Of a DNA stretch of 64,000 nt, positions 33,312-40,034 are shown in pieces. Every line of letters starts with the position of its first letter. Within the stretch, counting starts at the first letter, position 1. The translations under genes and the position numbers were made by a program. Source of the DNA: Sphingorhabdus sp. Alg231-15 (lineage in GTDB: Bacteria; Pseudomonadota; Alphaproteobacteria; Sphingomonadales; Sphingomonadaceae); contig NZ_LT703001.1 in assembly GCF_900149705.1 (NCBI RefSeq), forward strand, positions 2,294,001 through 2,358,000, read 5' to 3'. The notes below the pieces were generated by a model. The model saw only the letters and a list, made by a program, of their open reading frames with translations, was not told where the DNA came from and made no database searches.

Positions 33312-33360
33312 TGGGAATGTGGCGGCATTTTGATATTCTCGGCAAAATTTGGAGAGAGAC

Positions 33361-34581
33361 ATGTCGCGGCAAAAATTACTGGAAATGACCCGTTCGCTGG
33401 TAAAGCATGGCGAGGCGGATACGATGGAATTGGTGGATGATGTCGTGGCGGTGCCCGCATCAGACTATACCGACGAAGGTCGTTTCGAACTTGAAAAGGA
33501 ACGCATCTTCAAGCGGCTCCCGCTAATGGTTGCGCCTTCCTGCGAGGTGCCGGAACCTGGTTCCTATAAAGCCATGGAAATTGCTGGCATCCCGGTTCTC
33601 GTCACCCGTCAGAAAGACGGCACAGCCCAAGCCTTTCTTAACAGCTGCACCCATCGCGGCAATCCAGTGGCGCAGGGCAGTGGCAAGGCGTCGCGCTTTA
33701 CCTGCGGATATCATGGCTGGACGTTTAAAAATAATGGTGATTTGCTGGCCGTGGCGTCGCCCAAGGATTTTGGGACGGTCGACAAGGCAGCATTCTGTCT
33801 GAAGAAATTTCCAACGCTGGAGCGAGCAGGTCTGATCTGGGCCACGCTAGACCCGAACAGCGCGCTCGATATTGCGTCTTATCTATGCGGTTATGACGAG
33901 CTGTTGGAGCATTTCGGATTCAAGACCTGGCATCTTTTTGAACAGCGTACGCTTCCTGGCCCCAACTGGAAAACCGCCTATGACGGCTATCTCGATTTCT
34001 ATCATTTGCCGGTTCTCCACAAAGACACATTCGGCGCTGATTTCTTCAACCGGGCCAATTATTTCGCCTGGGGCCCGCATCAACGCCTGTCCTCTCCATC
34101 AAAATTCATTCAGAAGACGGGCAGCGATGAACAAATTGATCTCACTGAGACAGATGAGAAAGATTGGCCGATCGACGCCTTGTTACAGGGCGTTTGGACA
34201 ATATTCCCGCACATCTCGATCGCGAGCTTTTATGGCGGCGGTGGTCGCGGGGCGATGATATCGCAGCTCTTTCCAGGCAAGACGGTCGGTGAAAGTTTCA
34301 CCACGCAGTTTTACGTGATGGAGCATGAACCAACAAACGATGAAGTCCGGCAGGGCGCACACGACCAGTTCGCGTTTTTGGAAACTGTCGTTGCAGAAGA
34401 GGATTACAAGACCGGAAAAAGGCAGCATGAAGCTTTGCAATCCGGGATGCTCGACAAGGTCTGGTTTGGCCGCAATGAAGGCGGCGGGCAGGCTTTTCAT
34501 CAATGGGTGGACAGGCTGATAAAAGCTGACGATGGCGAGCTGGATGCAATATTCGCGCCGCAGCTAGAGGCTGCTGAATAG
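33361..34581 (+). CDS. Rieske ring-hydroxylating oxygenase, large subunit
   Basis: 406 residues. The Rieske cluster site is 'CTHRGN' (about residue 96) and 'CGYHGW' (about 115). The mononuclear iron site is 'DGYLDFYHLPVLHKD' (two His near 215 and 220), with an acidic ligand expected in 'EEDYKTGKRQHE'. Such alpha subunits dihydroxylate or demethylate aromatic or choline-like substrates. No reductase, ferredoxin or beta subunit is adjacent, so electrons must come from elsewhere. The TTG at 33349 is rejected; GGAGAG precedes this ATG. Confidence 0.9.
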   Translation: MSRQKLLEMTRSLVKHGEADTMELVDDVVAVPASDYTDEGRFELEKERIFKRLPLMVAPSCEVPEPGSYKAMEIAGIPVLVTRQKDGTAQAFLNSCTHRGNPVAQGSGKASRFTCGYHGWTFKNNGDLLAVASPKDFGTVDKAAFCLKKFPTLERAGLIWATLDPNSALDIASYLCGYDELLEHFGFKTWHLFEQRTLPGPNWKTAYDGYLDFYHLPVLHKDTFGADFFNRANYFAWGPHQRLSSPSKFIQKTGSDEQIDLTETDEKDWPIDALLQGVWTIFPHISIASFYGGGGRGAMISQLFPGKTVGESFTTQFYVMEHEPTNDEVRQGAHDQFAFLETVVAEEDYKTGKRQHEALQSGMLDKVWFGRNEGGGQAFHQWVDRLIKADDGELDAIFAPQLEAAE

Positions 34582-35148
34582 CTAAGCGTTGCGAAAATCG
34601 CGACTTGGCGGCAGGGCTTCTTCCCAATTGGGGCGTTCGTTACGCAACCTTTCGAGCATTTTTTCCCAATAGGCTTCAGTCTTTCCCTTGAACTGGATAT
34701 TGAAATCCTCAGCAGTTCGAAATTCCAGAATTTCGACGCCTTTCTCACCAATGGTATAGGTGTACGGCGTTTCGGCCGGCAGGAAGAACCCGTCACCCGG
34801 GCCCATATGTTCTGTGCCCATGTGAATATCGCCGGCAATGATATAATAGAGACAATCGCTGTCATGGCTGTGAAGCGGCAGCGGATAACCGGGCTTGAAC
34901 CAGAAATGATGGAGCGAAAAGCCAAAGCCACTGAACAGGCAGGTGCCTTTATAGCCATCGGCCACACCGGCTTCACCCATTTTGGTTAGGCCATCCAGGA
35001 TGACCGGCGCATCATCGACATAGGACATATGCCCTGCATCGCCAAAGTCCTGCGCATCTTCTTTGCGGAAGATACGCAGGACTTTCAGCGGCTCGGGTTT
35101 ATCGCCTGCTTTTTCTGTGCCTGTTTTCGTGGGGGAGGCATCTGCCAT
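34582..35148 (-). CDS. Cupin-domain protein
   Basis: 188 residues. The cupin core is 'PLPLHSHDSDCLYYIIAGDI' then 'GPGDGFFLPAETPYTYTIG'; two metal-binding His are visible in HxH, while the usual Glu is not clear. The N-terminus is charged and C-terminal 40 residues are helical-looking ('AYWEKMLERLRNE'). The stop codon begins one base after the Rieske stop, so the two genes are convergent and tightly packed. A metabolic role with the Rieske enzyme is possible but unproven. Confidence 0.78.
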   Translation of the reverse strand: MADASPTKTGTEKAGDKPEPLKVLRIFRKEDAQDFGDAGHMSYVDDAPVILDGLTKMGEAGVADGYKGTCLFSGFGFSLHHFWFKPGYPLPLHSHDSDCLYYIIAGDIHMGTEHMGPGDGFFLPAETPYTYTIGEKGVEILEFRTAEDFNIQFKGKTEAYWEKMLERLRNERPNWEEALPPSRDFRNA

Positions 35149-35837: not shown

Positions 35838-35913
35838 AGGGGTGTAGCTCAGATGGTAGAGCGTCGGTCTCCAAAACCGAAGGCCCACGGTTCGATCCCG
35901 TGCGCCCCTGCCA
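35838..35913 (+). tRNA. tRNA-Trp (anticodon CCA)
   Basis: Acceptor AGGGGTG pairs with the 3' side CGCCCCT, with a G-U pair, and the anticodon loop CTCCAAA with CCA is flanked by CGGT/ACCG. The T loop TTCGATC and encoded 3' CCA are present. In many alphaproteobacteria this gene lies just upstream of secE-nusG; here secE is 3.9 kb away. Confidence 0.97.
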
Positions 35914-35944
35914 CTTTTTTCTAAATATATGGCAGTCTCGCAAT

Positions 35945-36334
35945 ATGACGCAGTTTATCTCCGCTATCTCATTGATTGTACCGGATTATGATCAGGCTAT
36001 TGGTTTTTATGTCGGGCTAATGGGCTTTGATCTTATTGAAGATACTCAGCTTTCGGAAGATAAACGCTGGGTTCTGGTGGCCCCTCCGGGCAGCACGGAA
36101 ACACGGCTGTTGCTCGCCAAAGCTAGCAATGAAGCACAGGAAGAAGTGATCGGCGAGCAAGCCGGCAACCGGGTATTCCTGTTTCTGGAAACCTATGATT
36201 TTGATACGGATTTTGCCCTGATGGAGCGTGCCGGCATCGATATCATCGAAGAGCCGCGAGTCGAAAGCTATGGCAAGGTAGTCGTCTTTCGTGACCCGTT
36301 CGGTAACAAATGGGACCTGATCGAGCGTCACTAA
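35945..36334 (+). CDS. VOC-superfamily (glyoxalase-like) protein
   Basis: 129 residues of the vicinal-oxygen-chelate fold: 'LIVPDYDQAIGFYVG', 'RWVLVAPPGSTETRLLLAK' and 'VVFRDPFGNKWDLIERH'. Family members bind a divalent metal and act as glyoxalases, dioxygenases or resistance proteins; the substrate is unknown. It is 31 bp downstream of tRNA-Trp and begins the accessory block. The frame before this ATG runs back into the tRNA and is rejected. Confidence 0.85.
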   Translation: MTQFISAISLIVPDYDQAIGFYVGLMGFDLIEDTQLSEDKRWVLVAPPGSTETRLLLAKASNEAQEEVIGEQAGNRVFLFLETYDFDTDFALMERAGIDIIEEPRVESYGKVVVFRDPFGNKWDLIERH

Positions 36335-36337
36335 GGG

Positions 36338-36976
36338 CTATCGCTCAATATCCAGAGCGCCTGCAATCATACCCCAAATCTGATGCGTTAATATTGCGGG
36401 ATCGGGCCGGGGCTTCATTCCCATGGCATGCATGATCCCGCCGCGCATGGCACCCGTGATTGCCGCTCCCGCAATAGCCGGATCGATATGCTGGCCGATA
36501 TCGCCGCGCTTGATGCCGGAACCGATATTCCGCGTGGCCATTTCGATCATCTCTTCATGGCGCGCGGACTCGACAGCTGCAACCTGGTTGGTATGGGCCA
36601 TCTTGCCAAGGATGACCGGGGCCATGGGATCATTGTAGAGGAATTCTACAGCTGCCATCAGCCGGTCTTTTTCCCGCACACCCCAGTTTATATCGGGATC
36701 AATATACTGGTTCACAACGGCATTATAGCGATCATAGAAAGCATCGATAATCGCCCCCAGCATGCCCGATTTAGAACCGAAATAATGATAGGCGAGACCG
36801 ACGGAGACATCAGCCTTCTCCGCCACCTGACCCATTTCCAGATCACCTTCGCCTTCGCGCAAGATGGCTTCGGCAGCTGCCAATATCTTTGCCGCGCGCA
36901 TCACTTTGCGATCCGGCTTTTCAATTGCTTTTGCTTGTCCTGACATCTGCTCTCGATCCTCTAGCGGCTTGCTCAT
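36338..36976 (-). CDS. TetR-family repressor of the divergent cassette
   Basis: 212 residues. The N-terminal HTH ('AAEAILREGEGDLEMGQVAE', 'KADVSVGLAYHYFGSKSGML') is followed by a helical ligand domain. It is divergent from the PhyH gene, and the gap between them contains a perfect 24-bp palindrome, so autoregulation and control of the PhyH-SnoaL-isomerase operon is the expected model. It is convergent with the VOC gene (stops three bases apart). The ligand is unknown. Confidence 0.9.
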   Translation of the reverse strand: MSKPLEDREQMSGQAKAIEKPDRKVMRAAKILAAAEAILREGEGDLEMGQVAEKADVSVGLAYHYFGSKSGMLGAIIDAFYDRYNAVVNQYIDPDINWGVREKDRLMAAVEFLYNDPMAPVILGKMAHTNQVAAVESARHEEMIEMATRNIGSGIKRGDIGQHIDPAIAGAAITGAMRGGIMHAMGMKPRPDPAILTHQIWGMIAGALDIER

Positions 36977-37004
36977 TCAACAAGTGCCATCTGCTCTATG
37001 GCAA

Positions 37005-37028
37005 TTTTGAATTGAATTCAATTCAAAA
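37005..37028. promoter_or_regulatory. Perfect 24-bp palindrome, probable TetR operator
   Basis: The sequence is TTTTGAATTGAA followed by its exact complement in reverse, centred on GAATTC. It lies 28 bases upstream of the TetR start and 42 bases upstream of the PhyH start, overlapping where both promoters should be. The symmetry is seen directly; repressor binding is inferred from the context. Confidence 0.8.
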
Positions 37029-37073
37029 CCTGATTATCTGCTACAGTGAGATTGATTCGCTGAGGAGGCCATG

Positions 37074-37967
37074 ATGAATGTCGCGAGCACCATTGAAACG
37101 AACGATGCCGACCTGACGCCCTATCTGAACGGGCGCAGCTTCGAGGACATGTGGCAGCAGTTTCAGGACGAAGGCTATGTGATCTTTGAAAACGTGCTGA
37201 CGCCTGAAGAGTTGGAGACACAGCGGGCTGCACTCAAACCATGGATTGATGCCGATATTCGTGGCCGCAATAACTTCGAGGGATCACAGTCCAACCGCAT
37301 CTATGCCATGCTCGACAAGGATCCTGTTTTTGGCGACTTGATATCACACCCCTTGCAACTGGCTTTTGCCGAACGAGAATTGGGCGCAAGTGTGTTGCTT
37401 TACGCCAGCCTCGCGATCAATCTGCATCCCGGTGAAACCCCGCAACCCTGGCATTTTGATGACAGTCATTGCGGCCTTGCCCGTCCACGCGAGCCGCTCT
37501 CCATGTCAACATTCTGGTCGATCACCGACATGACGGACGACAATGGAGCCACCGAGATCATTCCGGGCAGTCACAAATGGGGTGACGAACAGCCTGACGG
37601 CGCGAATAGCGCTAATGATTTTGTAACCGGGCGGATTGATGGGGATGCCAAAAGCACGGGCAATCATATGCAAGCGATCAAAGCGACCATGCCAGCCGGA
37701 TCATTGATGATCGCCAAGGGCACTCTCTGGCATCGGGGCGGCGGCAATGATTCCGATGCGCCTCGCCTGATCGTCACGCCGCAATTTTGCAGAGGTTGGT
37801 GCCGGCCGCTGGAACAGCAAACCCTGGCAGTGTCGCCGGAGAAAGTGGCCAAAATGCCAAAGCGCGTGCAGGAACTGCTCGGCTATAATATCCATTTGCC
37901 GTTCATGGGTTATGTCGATGGCATGCATCCATCGAAGCTGTTACAGTCCGGCCGACATGCCAAGTGA
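37074..37967 (+). CDS. Phytanoyl-CoA dioxygenase (PhyH) family protein
   Basis: 297 residues. The iron-binding facial triad is visible: HxD in 'PWHFDDSHCGLAR' (about residue 126) and the second His in 'LWHRGGGNDSDAPRL' (about 219) with the Arg for 2-oxoglutarate just after. PhyH proteins hydroxylate, demethylate or halogenate diverse substrates using Fe(II) and 2-oxoglutarate. It is the first gene of the cassette under the divergent TetR palindrome. The ATG at 37074 is preferred to that at 37071 because GAGGAGG then lies five bases upstream. It overlaps the next gene by 11 bases. Confidence 0.87.
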   Translation: MNVASTIETNDADLTPYLNGRSFEDMWQQFQDEGYVIFENVLTPEELETQRAALKPWIDADIRGRNNFEGSQSNRIYAMLDKDPVFGDLISHPLQLAFAERELGASVLLYASLAINLHPGETPQPWHFDDSHCGLARPREPLSMSTFWSITDMTDDNGATEIIPGSHKWGDEQPDGANSANDFVTGRIDGDAKSTGNHMQAIKATMPAGSLMIAKGTLWHRGGGNDSDAPRLIVTPQFCRGWCRPLEQQTLAVSPEKVAKMPKRVQELLGYNIHLPFMGYVDGMHPSKLLQSGRHAK

Positions 37968-38412
37968 CCATGAACTGATCCAGAATCTCTACGCAGCCTA
38001 TTGTTTTACCGTTGATCGCGGATCAGCGGAAGATATAGCCGCCTGTTTTTGGGACGATTGCTATCTGAACTTTGGTGGCAACATCCATGAAGGCGCGGAT
38101 GCAGCACGTATTGGATTTGCCAAATGGATCACCAAGATGCGCGATCCGGTCAAGGGATTGCGCCACTGTCTCTACTCGCCGCTTATCACCGTTGATGGCA
38201 ACCGCGCCAATGCTGAAGCCTATTATGATGCCGATGGACATGCCGGTCGAAAAGGCAAACCGATACAGCTTCGCGGTCTTTATCGCAGCACACTCGAGAA
38301 GCGCGCCAATGCAACAGGAACATATGAATGGCGCTTCCTGAAACATGAAGTGCAAATTTGGCCTTCCATCCGCGATCATTCCGCGCCCACCGGGCAGGAG
38401 GCGCAGGTTTGA
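37957..38412 (+). CDS. SnoaL-like/NTF2-fold protein
   Basis: 151 residues. The cone-shaped NTF2 fold is suggested by 'LIQNLYAAYCFTVDRGSAED', 'FWDDCYLNFGGNIHEG', 'GLRHCLYSPLITVDGNRANA' and the C-terminal 'YEWRFLKHEVQIWP'. Related proteins are isomerases, dehydratases, cyclases or small dioxygenase partners in aromatic and steroid catabolism. The ATG at 37957 overlaps the PhyH end by 11 bases, and its own stop overlaps the next start (TTGA), so the operon is tightly coupled. Confidence 0.82.
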   Translation: MPSDHELIQNLYAAYCFTVDRGSAEDIAACFWDDCYLNFGGNIHEGADAARIGFAKWITKMRDPVKGLRHCLYSPLITVDGNRANAEAYYDADGHAGRKGKPIQLRGLYRSTLEKRANATGTYEWRFLKHEVQIWPSIRDHSAPTGQEAQV

Positions 38413-39116
38413 ACGCGCTTGAGAGTGACGCGCCGCTAATTGTCTTTGTCGACATCAAGAGCCCCTATGCCTTTGCTGCGATCGGGCCAACTCTGGCTTT
38501 AGAGGCGGAACTGGAGTTGCGGTTTGATTGGCGGCCGCTGACGCTCGATATTCCGAGTTATCTGGGATCAGCACGCAAAAGCAAAGGCAAGGTGGTCGAA
38601 AGCACCCGTAGTTCCAATCAATGGAGTTGGGTAAAATATGCCTATCGCGATGCCCGCCGATATGTAGAACGCCAGGGATATATGCTTAAGGGCACGGAGA
38701 AGATCTGGGATTCCTCAATTCCCAATATCGCGATATTGTGGGTGATGCAGACAGACCGTGAACGGCTCGGGGAGTATTTTGCGGCCGTCTATCCGTCCTT
38801 TTGGCGGCGGGAATTGGATATCGAAGATATGGCTGTGGTCGAGACTTGTCTGGAACAGGCCGGAATCGATTCGCGCGGTTTTGCCGAGTTTGCGCGAGGG
38901 GAGGGCCGCAGACAGCATGACAAGCTTCAGCCCCAGCTTCATCCCGGCGGTATATATGGCGTGCCCACTTATGTGATCGACAATGTCATCCTGTTTGGCC
39001 GCGAACATTTGCCCTATATTCGTTGGCATTTGAAGGGACGGAAAGGACCAGCACCTGACATTGCTTATGAGATTGACGATCTTCAAGCTGGTATTGTGGG
39101 AGCAGCACCATGTTGA
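38409..39116 (+). CDS. HCCA isomerase/DsbA-like (GST kappa fold) protein 1
   Basis: 235 residues. The thioredoxin-fold start 'VFVDIKSPYAFAAIGP' carries the Ser of 2-hydroxychromene-2-carboxylate isomerases and kappa GSTs; 'YGVPTYVIDNVILFGREHLP' is the conserved end with cis-Pro. Known relatives isomerise naphthalene-pathway intermediates using glutathione. The start is a TTG at 38409: no ATG lies nearby, AGGAGG is nine bases upstream, and TTG overlaps the preceding stop. It overlaps the next gene by seven bases. Confidence 0.87.
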   Translation: MNALESDAPLIVFVDIKSPYAFAAIGPTLALEAELELRFDWRPLTLDIPSYLGSARKSKGKVVESTRSSNQWSWVKYAYRDARRYVERQGYMLKGTEKIWDSSIPNIAILWVMQTDRERLGEYFAAVYPSFWRRELDIEDMAVVETCLEQAGIDSRGFAEFARGEGRRQHDKLQPQLHPGGIYGVPTYVIDNVILFGREHLPYIRWHLKGRKGPAPDIAYEIDDLQAGIVGAAPC

Positions 39117-39685
39117 CCCTCTATATCGATTTCAAATCCGCCGCTTCTTACCTAGCGCTTGAGCCGACATTGGAGCTGGCACGCGAAACCGGCATTGTTA
39201 TCGACTGGCGTCCGTTCTCAGCCCGGCCTTTTTTTGTGCCAGAGGAACAAAGCGATGAGACGGTTGGCGAACGTCATCGCCGCGTCCGTGCCGCGGCGCA
39301 GCGGGACATTCATTTGCATTATGCAGCTTTGCAAGGCAGGGACATGCGCTTTGCTGAAGCACCTGCCGGGTCCGATGCCGCATTGGCCGCATTGACTTTG
39401 ATGGATGGCGATCCATTGCCGTTCCTGCGTGCGGCCTTCGCTGCCTATTGGACCGAACAAATGGATTTAGCCGATGAAACGGTTGTCGAATCGCTGCTGC
39501 ACTCTGTCGGCATCGACCGACTGGATTGGGGGCCGGCCCGCGCAAAACTGGCGGTAATCCGTGCCCAAGCGGAGGAATCGGGAATTTTTGAAGCCCCCTC
39601 CTATCTGATTGCTGATCAGCTTTTTCTGGGCCGCGAACATTTGCCCTGGATACGGTCCTTGATCGCCGCCGAGCAGCGCGACTAA
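39110..39685 (+). CDS. HCCA isomerase/DsbA-like (GST kappa fold) protein 2
   Basis: 191 residues, the same fold as the preceding gene but shorter and divergent: 'LYIDFKSAASYLALEPTLEL' at the start and 'FEAPSYLIADQLFLGREHLP' near the end. The shared closing motif 'LFGREHLP/LFLGREHLP' suggests tandem duplication followed by change. The Ser of the first motif is kept, but the following Pro is Ala. Two such isomerases acting together, or as a heterodimer, is an inference. This ends the cassette; secE begins 145 bp later. Confidence 0.85.
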   Translation: MLTLYIDFKSAASYLALEPTLELARETGIVIDWRPFSARPFFVPEEQSDETVGERHRRVRAAAQRDIHLHYAALQGRDMRFAEAPAGSDAALAALTLMDGDPLPFLRAAFAAYWTEQMDLADETVVESLLHSVGIDRLDWGPARAKLAVIRAQAEESGIFEAPSYLIADQLFLGREHLPWIRSLIAAEQRD

Positions 39686-39830
39686 ATCCCACTCTTTTCT
39701 TGCGGAATCGGGAATCACCGGCTAAAGGGCTGGTTCTTTCCGAAATCATGCATATATCCGATCCCAGTCGACAGACTGACACCCGGAGTTTATGCCGGGT
39801 TTGGGGAAAAGTAATTTTAGGAATCGAACC

Positions 39831-40034
39831 ATGGCGAAAGTCAATCCCGGCGAATTTATGCGGCAAGTCCGCGCCGAAAACAGCAAGGTTGTCTGGCCGA
39901 CATGGCCCGATACGGTCCGTACCGCGATCATGGTGCTGATCATGACGACGATCTTGGGACTGTTTTTCCTGGCCATCGATTCGGTTTTCAACGGGGTGGT
40001 CGGTTGGCTGCTTGGGATGGCAAAGGGCGGATAA
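39831..40034 (+). CDS. secE: Preprotein translocase subunit SecE
   Basis: 67 residues with a charged N-terminus ('FMRQVRAENSKVVWPTWPDT') and one C-terminal membrane helix ('TAIMVLIMTTILGLFFLAI'), the short SecE of alphaproteobacteria. It is an essential part of the SecYEG channel. The ATG at 39831 is used; the in-frame extension to 39792 lies in the leader and is rejected. A small hairpin (ACCCGG/CCGGGT, near 39781-39800) sits in the leader. nusG follows. Confidence 0.95.
   Translation: MAKVNPGEFMRQVRAENSKVVWPTWPDTVRTAIMVLIMTTILGLFFLAIDSVFNGVVGWLLGMAKGG

Follow-up and report, generated by a model that had tools for sequence, protein, structure and literature searches.

A mosaic slot between tRNA-Trp and secE in Sphingorhabdus and its relatives, with exchangeable PhyH alleles and mirrored palindromes beside a TetR-type regulator

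Is the DNA that separates tRNA-Trp from secE in Sphingorhabdus sp. Alg231-15 a self-contained unit inserted at one point, or one state of a site that different genomes fill with different genes? The question is raised by a 64,000-nucleotide stretch of this genome (contig NZ_LT703001.1, positions 2,294,001 to 2,358,000; hereafter the window), in which tRNA-Trp(CCA) (35838..35913, + strand; ARAGORN and Rfam) and secE (39831..40034, + strand, with its ATG at 39831; Pfam PF00584) lie 3.9 kb apart according to open reading frame (ORF) calls, Pfam and ARAGORN. They enclose genes for a VOC/glyoxalase-family protein, a TetR-type regulator, a PhyH-family oxygenase, a SnoaL_4-domain protein and two proteins, Dsb1 and Dsb2, that resemble 2-hydroxychromene-2-carboxylate (HCCA) isomerase and kappa-type glutathione S-transferase (GST). 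The genome, of 3.62 Mb, belongs to the Sphingomonadaceae, and its nearest named relatives are Parasphingorhabdus and Sphingorhabdus. The gene set proves to be neither a fixed, self-contained island nor a recent insertion; it is one of several states of a mosaic slot.

Gene content of the slot in the genus and the family

Thirty-two genomes of the genus were compared, in 27 of which the whole gap lies on one contig (it is cut in G217, G209, G210, G218 and G212). PhyH (E <= 1e-60) is present in 31 of the 32 genomes and stands inside the gap in all 27 complete cases, with a changing set of companions. The VOC gene (35945..36334, + strand; PF00903) occurs in 24 of the complete gaps, both isomerase-like genes in 19, the TetR gene (36338..36976, − strand; PF00440) in 15 and the SnoaL gene (37957..38412, + strand; PF13577) in six, and all six genes are found together in only four, namely those of the window, L037, L038 and L039. 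Eight genus genomes have VOC-PhyH-Dsb1-Dsb2 without TetR or SnoaL. A TetR of this type (E <= 1e-30) is encoded in 19 of the 32 genomes and adjoins PhyH in 18, the contig of G212 ending just beyond TetR; Dsb1 is encoded in 23, and P. marina has the isomerase pair elsewhere on its chromosome.

Outside the genus the same genes recur in other company. Close PhyH relatives (E <= 1e-60) were found in seven of 199 family genomes, three of the seven belonging to this genus. Two loci of another genus (L165 and L166) have TetR and PhyH at a site without tRNA-Trp or secE, and in one of the two a Rieske gene separates TetR from PhyH, with a long gene behind that reads as protease-like from its sequence. 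In Erythrobacter (L053 and L054), TetR-PhyH occupies the next gap along, that of nusG and rplK. The Dsb1-Dsb2 pair appears in other alphaproteobacteria (L152, L153, L155 and L156), where the stretches fetched gave no PhyH match; in L155 it adjoins a Rieske gene and genes that look, from their sequences, like those for an enoyl-coenzyme A (CoA) hydratase, a GST and a thiolase. The PhyH neighbourhoods of Halieaceae/Luminiphilus gave no slot partner and have genes that resemble, by sequence, those for acyl-CoA dehydrogenase, aldehyde dehydrogenase and a kinase, and a search of plasmids with Dsb1 returned just three distant matches. In a gammaproteobacterial PhyH locus (L111), weak matches to SnoaL (27%) and to the Rieske protein (29%) lie nearby, and L072 has a weak Rieske match (24%).

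Across the family, the region upstream of nusG was taken from 53 loci of 53 other genera (89 genomes searched, 87 with a NusG match). tRNA-Trp precedes secE in the same orientation in 45 of them, and in the other eight it is either not found in the stretch or oppositely oriented. The spacing is 105-218 bp in 28 of the 45 loci, 506 bp in one and 2.0-6.9 kb in 16. One related membrane transporter, which we take to resemble an alanine/sodium symporter, fills 13 of the 16 long gaps (L227, L233, L234, L237, L242, L246, L247, L249, L250, L251, L253, L254 and L257). Because 28 of the 45 gaps are short and 13 of the 16 long ones hold a related transporter, adjacency of tRNA-Trp and secE is the commonest state in the family, and the gap is a slot that different lineages fill with different genes. 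In L247, a different gene, glyoxalase-like as read from its sequence, lies 40 bp behind tRNA-Trp.

An earlier note on the window, made from its letters, had started from the premise that secE directly follows tRNA-Trp in many alphaproteobacteria, and had taken the intervening genes as what looks like a self-contained, ligand-induced catabolic unit inserted between them. The premise holds in the family, and the window does carry extra DNA relative to the usual order. The set is not self-contained, as the isomerase pair is found without PhyH, TetR-PhyH stands elsewhere with other partners, and few genus gaps have all six genes. Nor is an insertion in the narrow sense supported: the slot genes include no integrase (ORFs and Pfam), the 3′ end of the tRNA, searched as a 24-mer at up to 3 mismatches, does not recur in the window, and G+C does not shift at the slot. 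Both marks of a tRNA-borne genomic island, an integrase and a duplicated tRNA end, are thus missing, and the single tRNA end, the even G+C and the presence of PhyH in every complete gap rule out a recent island insertion. Occurrence of the same genes in all relatives, which the note itself had set against its proposal, applies to PhyH and does not apply to the full set. In a Sphingorhabdus-like genome (L079:3473-4801), an ORF that reads as integrase-like from its sequence lies upstream of PhyH.

Alternative alleles at phyH

In the PhyH tree, the proteins of the genus fall into two groups, type A with 26 rows, including Erythrobacter and the other genus, and type B with 11 rows; the window's gene (37071..37967, + strand) is of type A. 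TetR is absent from all 11 type B rows, and among type A it is missing from L041 and L051, while L044 is cut by a contig end. The two types occur in closely related genomes. The SecE-NusG-RplK-RplA proteins of L038 and L039, which have type A and SnoaL, and of L057, which has type B, are identical over the aligned columns, and the DNA of L038 and L057 is 93% identical across the 9.3 kb that end at the VOC stop codon and 92% identical across the 6.6 kb that begin at the Dsb1 start codon. Between these two points L038 has TetR-PhyH(A)-SnoaL and L057 has PhyH(B), and only PhyH aligns, at 69%. The TetR-PhyH(A)(-SnoaL) block and PhyH(B) are therefore alternative alleles with sharp borders at gene ends.

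The phylogenetic tests agree with this. A clade of L038, L039 and L057 is rejected by the PhyH data (approximately unbiased (AU) test, p 2.6e-39), and so is the genus as a clade (AU p 0.0057; 32 rows versus 14), for a group that was named after the tree had been seen; the p value was 0.0145 in an earlier run whose group included a single row from another genus. On the tree of the SecE/NusG/RplK/RplA proteins, at least three changes of PhyH type are required. Homologous recombination through the conserved flanks would be the simplest means of exchange. The slot shows a regulated oxygenase allele replaced in situ beside an essential operon, between closely related genomes.

The TetR-type regulator and its mirrored palindrome

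Divergent genes separated by a palindromic operator are a familiar arrangement for TetR-family repressors. In the window, the TetR gene faces phyH across a perfect 24-bp palindrome (37005..37028), a likely operator whose 20-bp core, TTGAATTGAATTCAATTCAA, lies at 37007-37026. A search of the 3.6-Mb genome with up to 3 mismatches returns a single copy of this core; with at most one mismatch it was found in 8 of 397 family genomes, one copy each, and a class-wide draw by the pattern alone retrieved it from 3 of 385 genomes, the window genome among them. There are 28 core sites in PhyH loci, of which 27, including those of Maricaulis (L070) and Amphiplicatus (L113), adjoin this TetR subfamily; a contig end truncates the remaining one (L044). 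The core also stands beside this TetR type in L269 and L270, the two further sites from the class-wide draw. In G530, it precedes a TetR (34% identical) followed by PhyH (36%), and in the distant alphaproteobacterium G732 (L270:6354-8208) a copy with one mismatch stands before a TetR (44%) and, behind it, a Rieske oxygenase (25%). This TetR type and the palindromic core go together wherever the neighbourhood can be read. As the core adjoins this TetR at 27 of the 28 sites and in G530 and G732, it is likely to be the regulator's own operator, through which repression would be exerted. Indeed, the regulator has a TetR_N helix-turn-helix, in which vsvGlaYHyFgsK is shared by almost every one of 28 aligned regulators, and a dyad site close to its gene. 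The locus resembles classical TetR operators in this domain, in the divergent gene order and in the dyad core between the genes, and departs from them in that the core is nearly unchanged across several families and is flanked in 14 relatives by variable, mirrored arms.

In these 14 relatives, the core is extended into a perfect palindrome of 40-56 bp, the outer arms of which vary among species and are nevertheless mirrored. The arms measure 20-28 bp in 14 of the 28 sites and 7-13 bp in 12, and are cut by contig ends in two (L044 and L205); the short-arm set comprises the window's clade, L042 and L266 (which are the same genome), Erythrobacter, Maricaulis and Amphiplicatus, and in the window there is no mirroring past the 24 bp. 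Among 157 loci (2,232,849 bases), many of which were chosen for holding PhyH, 21 gapless perfect palindromes have arms of at least 12 bp, and 18 of them lie at this site in the window and its relatives. The 15 longest, with arms of at least 17 bp, are all at this site, and the next have arms of 16 bp.

The mirroring was compared with chance pairing of the two sides. In an alignment of 25 gapless rows, of which 24 are distinct (A3; the 28 sites minus L044, L205 and L113), all seven spacer pairs are mirrored in 14 rows, and between one and five of the seven in the other 11, L039 being highest with five. The 14 long sites, picked by the length of their arms, have 12 different 7-base spacers, each mirrored on the opposite side, and when left and right arms were re-paired among genomes, a mean of 1.4 of 14 were mirrored, with a maximum of 8 in 10,000 trials. 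In an alignment of 14 sites that were picked for arms of at least 20 bp and hence have no mismatch in the inner 20 pairs by construction (A4), 42 cells are changed on both sides where shuffles give 12.0 +- 2.6; the score for covariation reaches 0.372 and does not exceed 0.083 when one side is slid. For the 24 distinct rows of A3, the count of such cells is 59, compared with 24.0 +- 3.8. Two further measures discriminate poorly. The number of pairs with a double change is 8 in A4, against 5.5 in shuffles (reached by 11 of 500), and 8 in A3, against 7.5 (261 of 500), and the count of further pair types is not well separated, being reached by 79 and 107 of 500 shuffles; both counts are indistinct from shuffles in A3 and little distinct in A4. 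In the outermost 8 columns, mirrored matches fall to 1.6 of 8.

Close relatives show the same concerted change. L043 and L045 differ four times within 22 bp of the centre, each time in mirrored form, and 16 times elsewhere in the alignment of 360 columns. Six such close pairs together give 10 differing position pairs, of which seven are mirrored, one falls in an alignment gap, two are non-complementary and none is one-sided; both non-complementary changes are at the outermost position, beside the end of the L203 arm. Mirrored changes between close relatives, the mark looked for as a sign of template switching, are thus present. The single-strand folding energy is −26.2 kcal/mol in the longest palindrome and −6.8 in the window.

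In all 14 long sites, an invariant TA stands on either side at a distance of 17 bp from a TTGAAT in the core. These motifs would be the −35 and −10 elements of two divergent promoters, none of which is called by the promoter scan of the window, and if so the spacer between them has no binding reason to be mirrored. The perfect arms and double changes could of course belong to a broader TetR-binding site in which covariation only follows the changing specificity of the protein, and the position of the arms around a conserved operator-like core fits such a site. This is quite improbable, since the DNA-reading region of TetR hardly varies between species that differ in their arms by 3.8 of the 7 spacer bases on average, and the window's clade keeps TetR and the core without mirrored arms. 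The latter fact also makes a strict need for the arms unlikely. An RNA hairpin as the cause was rejected on the reading of the alignment, because both transcripts would start near or beyond the arms if TTGAAT is −35 and TA is −10; the Rfam scan of the region returned the tRNA only.

The data suggest that correction by template switching explains the perfect arms and the double changes, with selection for cruciform extrusion as its rival. That a divergent promoter-operator is kept a perfect mirror image in one of these ways, by template switching at the core or by selection for extrusion, we consider an even bet. The TetR core would then stay constant, the spacer and the likely −10 regions would change together on the two sides, and tetR and phyH would remain under mirror-image promoters; the two arms of a transcription control site would be evolving in concert. 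Correction of quasipalindromes by template switching is known in E. coli (PMC7202029), and template switching has been proposed to create and maintain RNA hairpins (PMC8794818). These reports and a further one (PMC8604942) describe inverted-repeat arms made identical and multi-base mirrored changes between close relatives, as here; their material is E. coli reporters, RNA genes and yeast coding genes, whereas the present case is a bacterial operator/promoter region. Among the matches listed from the open-licence literature, no paper on the gene set or on mirrored TetR operators was found. With their constant core and variable, mirrored arms, the operators supply a natural set of long perfect palindromes on which to ask what maintains such sequences in bacterial promoters: mutation, through template switching, or selection, for a cruciform or for promoter balance.

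The encoded proteins and a possible function

The gene list of the earlier note was reproduced by ORF calls, Pfam and the sequence itself, together with the perfect palindrome across which TetR faces the overlapping genes and the overlaps of 11, 4 and 7 bases between PhyH and SnoaL, SnoaL and Dsb1, and Dsb1 and Dsb2 (ORF coordinates). A TetR with a dyad site of its own is likewise supported, and the oxygenase and kappa/HCCA-isomerase-like assignments were borne out by Pfam, profiles and fold.

PhyH scores 98.4 bits against PF05721, for which the curated cut-off is 22. Its residues D130, H221 and R232 are invariant and H128 is present in at least 90% of 31 aligned rows; from knowledge of the family, we take H128, D130 and H221 to be iron ligands and R232 to bind 2-oxoglutarate. 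Its fold matches natural-product oxygenases, including SptF, PrhA and FtmOx1, with query TM-scores of 0.63-0.71 in the best 50 shown. These three are presumably fungal meroterpenoid/alkaloid 2-oxoglutarate oxygenases, and they share 18-25% identity with PhyH, so that its substrate cannot be read from the fold. A 38% identical PhyH of plasmid pDCA of Xanthobacter flavus (L117:7327-10492) lies between two TetR genes, with a haloalkane dehalogenase gene one gene away. The metaldehyde oxygenases MahX and MahS are likewise of the PhyH family, and mahX adjoins mahY, of the Glyoxalase_4 family, as a VOC gene accompanies phyH here (PMC9676059); the likeness drawn is one of protein family and neighbouring gene, and the slot genes include neither aldH nor an insertion sequence.

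Dsb1 (38409..39116, + strand, TTG start) and Dsb2 (39110..39685, + strand) carry the thioredoxin-DSBA domain PF01323 and are distant kin of HCCA isomerase. By profile, both match the isomerase structures 3fz5 and 2imd, with best E values of 5.9e-5 and 5.5e-7, and Dsb1 also matches by fold, its model aligning with 3fz5, 2imd and kappa GSTs at a TM-score of about 0.5. NCBIfam gave no match. In Dsb1, a serine replaces the CxxC redox pair (Ser18, in a KSP motif invariant in 11 rows), and Dsb2 has Ser at the equivalent place in 10 of 11 rows and Ala in one. Unlike the isomerase itself, they are two different copies side by side, and no naphthalene pathway lies in the slot. The recurrence of the pair in L152, L153, L155 and L156, where no PhyH match was seen, speaks for Dsb1 and Dsb2 working jointly.

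Taken as a whole, the locus is best explained as a mosaic slot for a TetR-repressed, inducible oxygenase operon with exchangeable PhyH alleles, a reading to which we assign a probability of roughly 0.6. In the genus, the slot holds a PhyH-type Fe(II)/2-oxoglutarate oxygenase, usually with the VOC gene and with a changing set of partners. The TetR-type repressor would bind the palindromic operator between tetR and phyH and shut both promoters until a small ligand releases it, upon which phyH, the SnoaL gene and the two isomerase-like genes would be transcribed as one overlapping operon. PhyH might oxidise a small hydrophobic or ring substrate, and SnoaL and the glutathione-dependent isomerase-like pair might process the product; as judged from the protein families, inducible oxidation of such a compound followed by glutathione-dependent rearrangement is likely. 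TetR-PhyH(A)(-SnoaL) and PhyH(B) would be swapped in place by homologous recombination. Several results weigh against this explanation. Many or most of the loci that share this TetR-PhyH lack the isomerase pair and SnoaL, which makes a fixed pathway doubtful. No consensus promoter was called at the operator, and the scan of the region gave 1 promoter-like site versus 3.5 in shuffles; the single Dsb1 sequence had no match in the PDB at E 0.01, only the profile matching, and the fold matches of Dsb1 come from a poor model (mean predicted local distance difference test score, 65). The naming of the genus group after the fact, noted above, belongs here too.

Two other explanations share part of this evidence. 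The tight overlap of four genes with TetR facing them, and the full set in four genomes including the window, would also fit the view of the earlier note, a fixed catabolic operon that was acquired as one block, its absence in relatives being due to loss. That history is unlikely, given that only 4 of the 27 complete gaps hold the full set and six hold SnoaL, that eight genomes have VOC-PhyH-Dsb1-Dsb2 without TetR or SnoaL, and that the pair of P. marina lies elsewhere in its genome. A detoxification or stress unit, in which a toxic hydrophobic compound would be cleared by PhyH together with the glutathione-dependent pair and yield no carbon, is a tentative possibility, in keeping with the glutathione-type enzymes, the TetR gene beside phyH, the setting of the distant pDCA PhyH near a haloalkane dehalogenase, and the absence of CoA or ring-cleavage families among the slot genes (Pfam). 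The slot has no efflux gene, which tells against such a unit, and the sequence does not separate detoxification from catabolism.

Upstream of tRNA-Trp, at 33349-35148 of the window, a gene for a Rieske oxygenase alpha subunit and a gene called cupin-like from its sequence, for which Pfam gave no match, are convergent and abut at 34581/34582. Among the genus loci with complete gaps, matches to the Rieske alpha subunit are present in 26 of 27 and matches to the cupin-like gene in 25.

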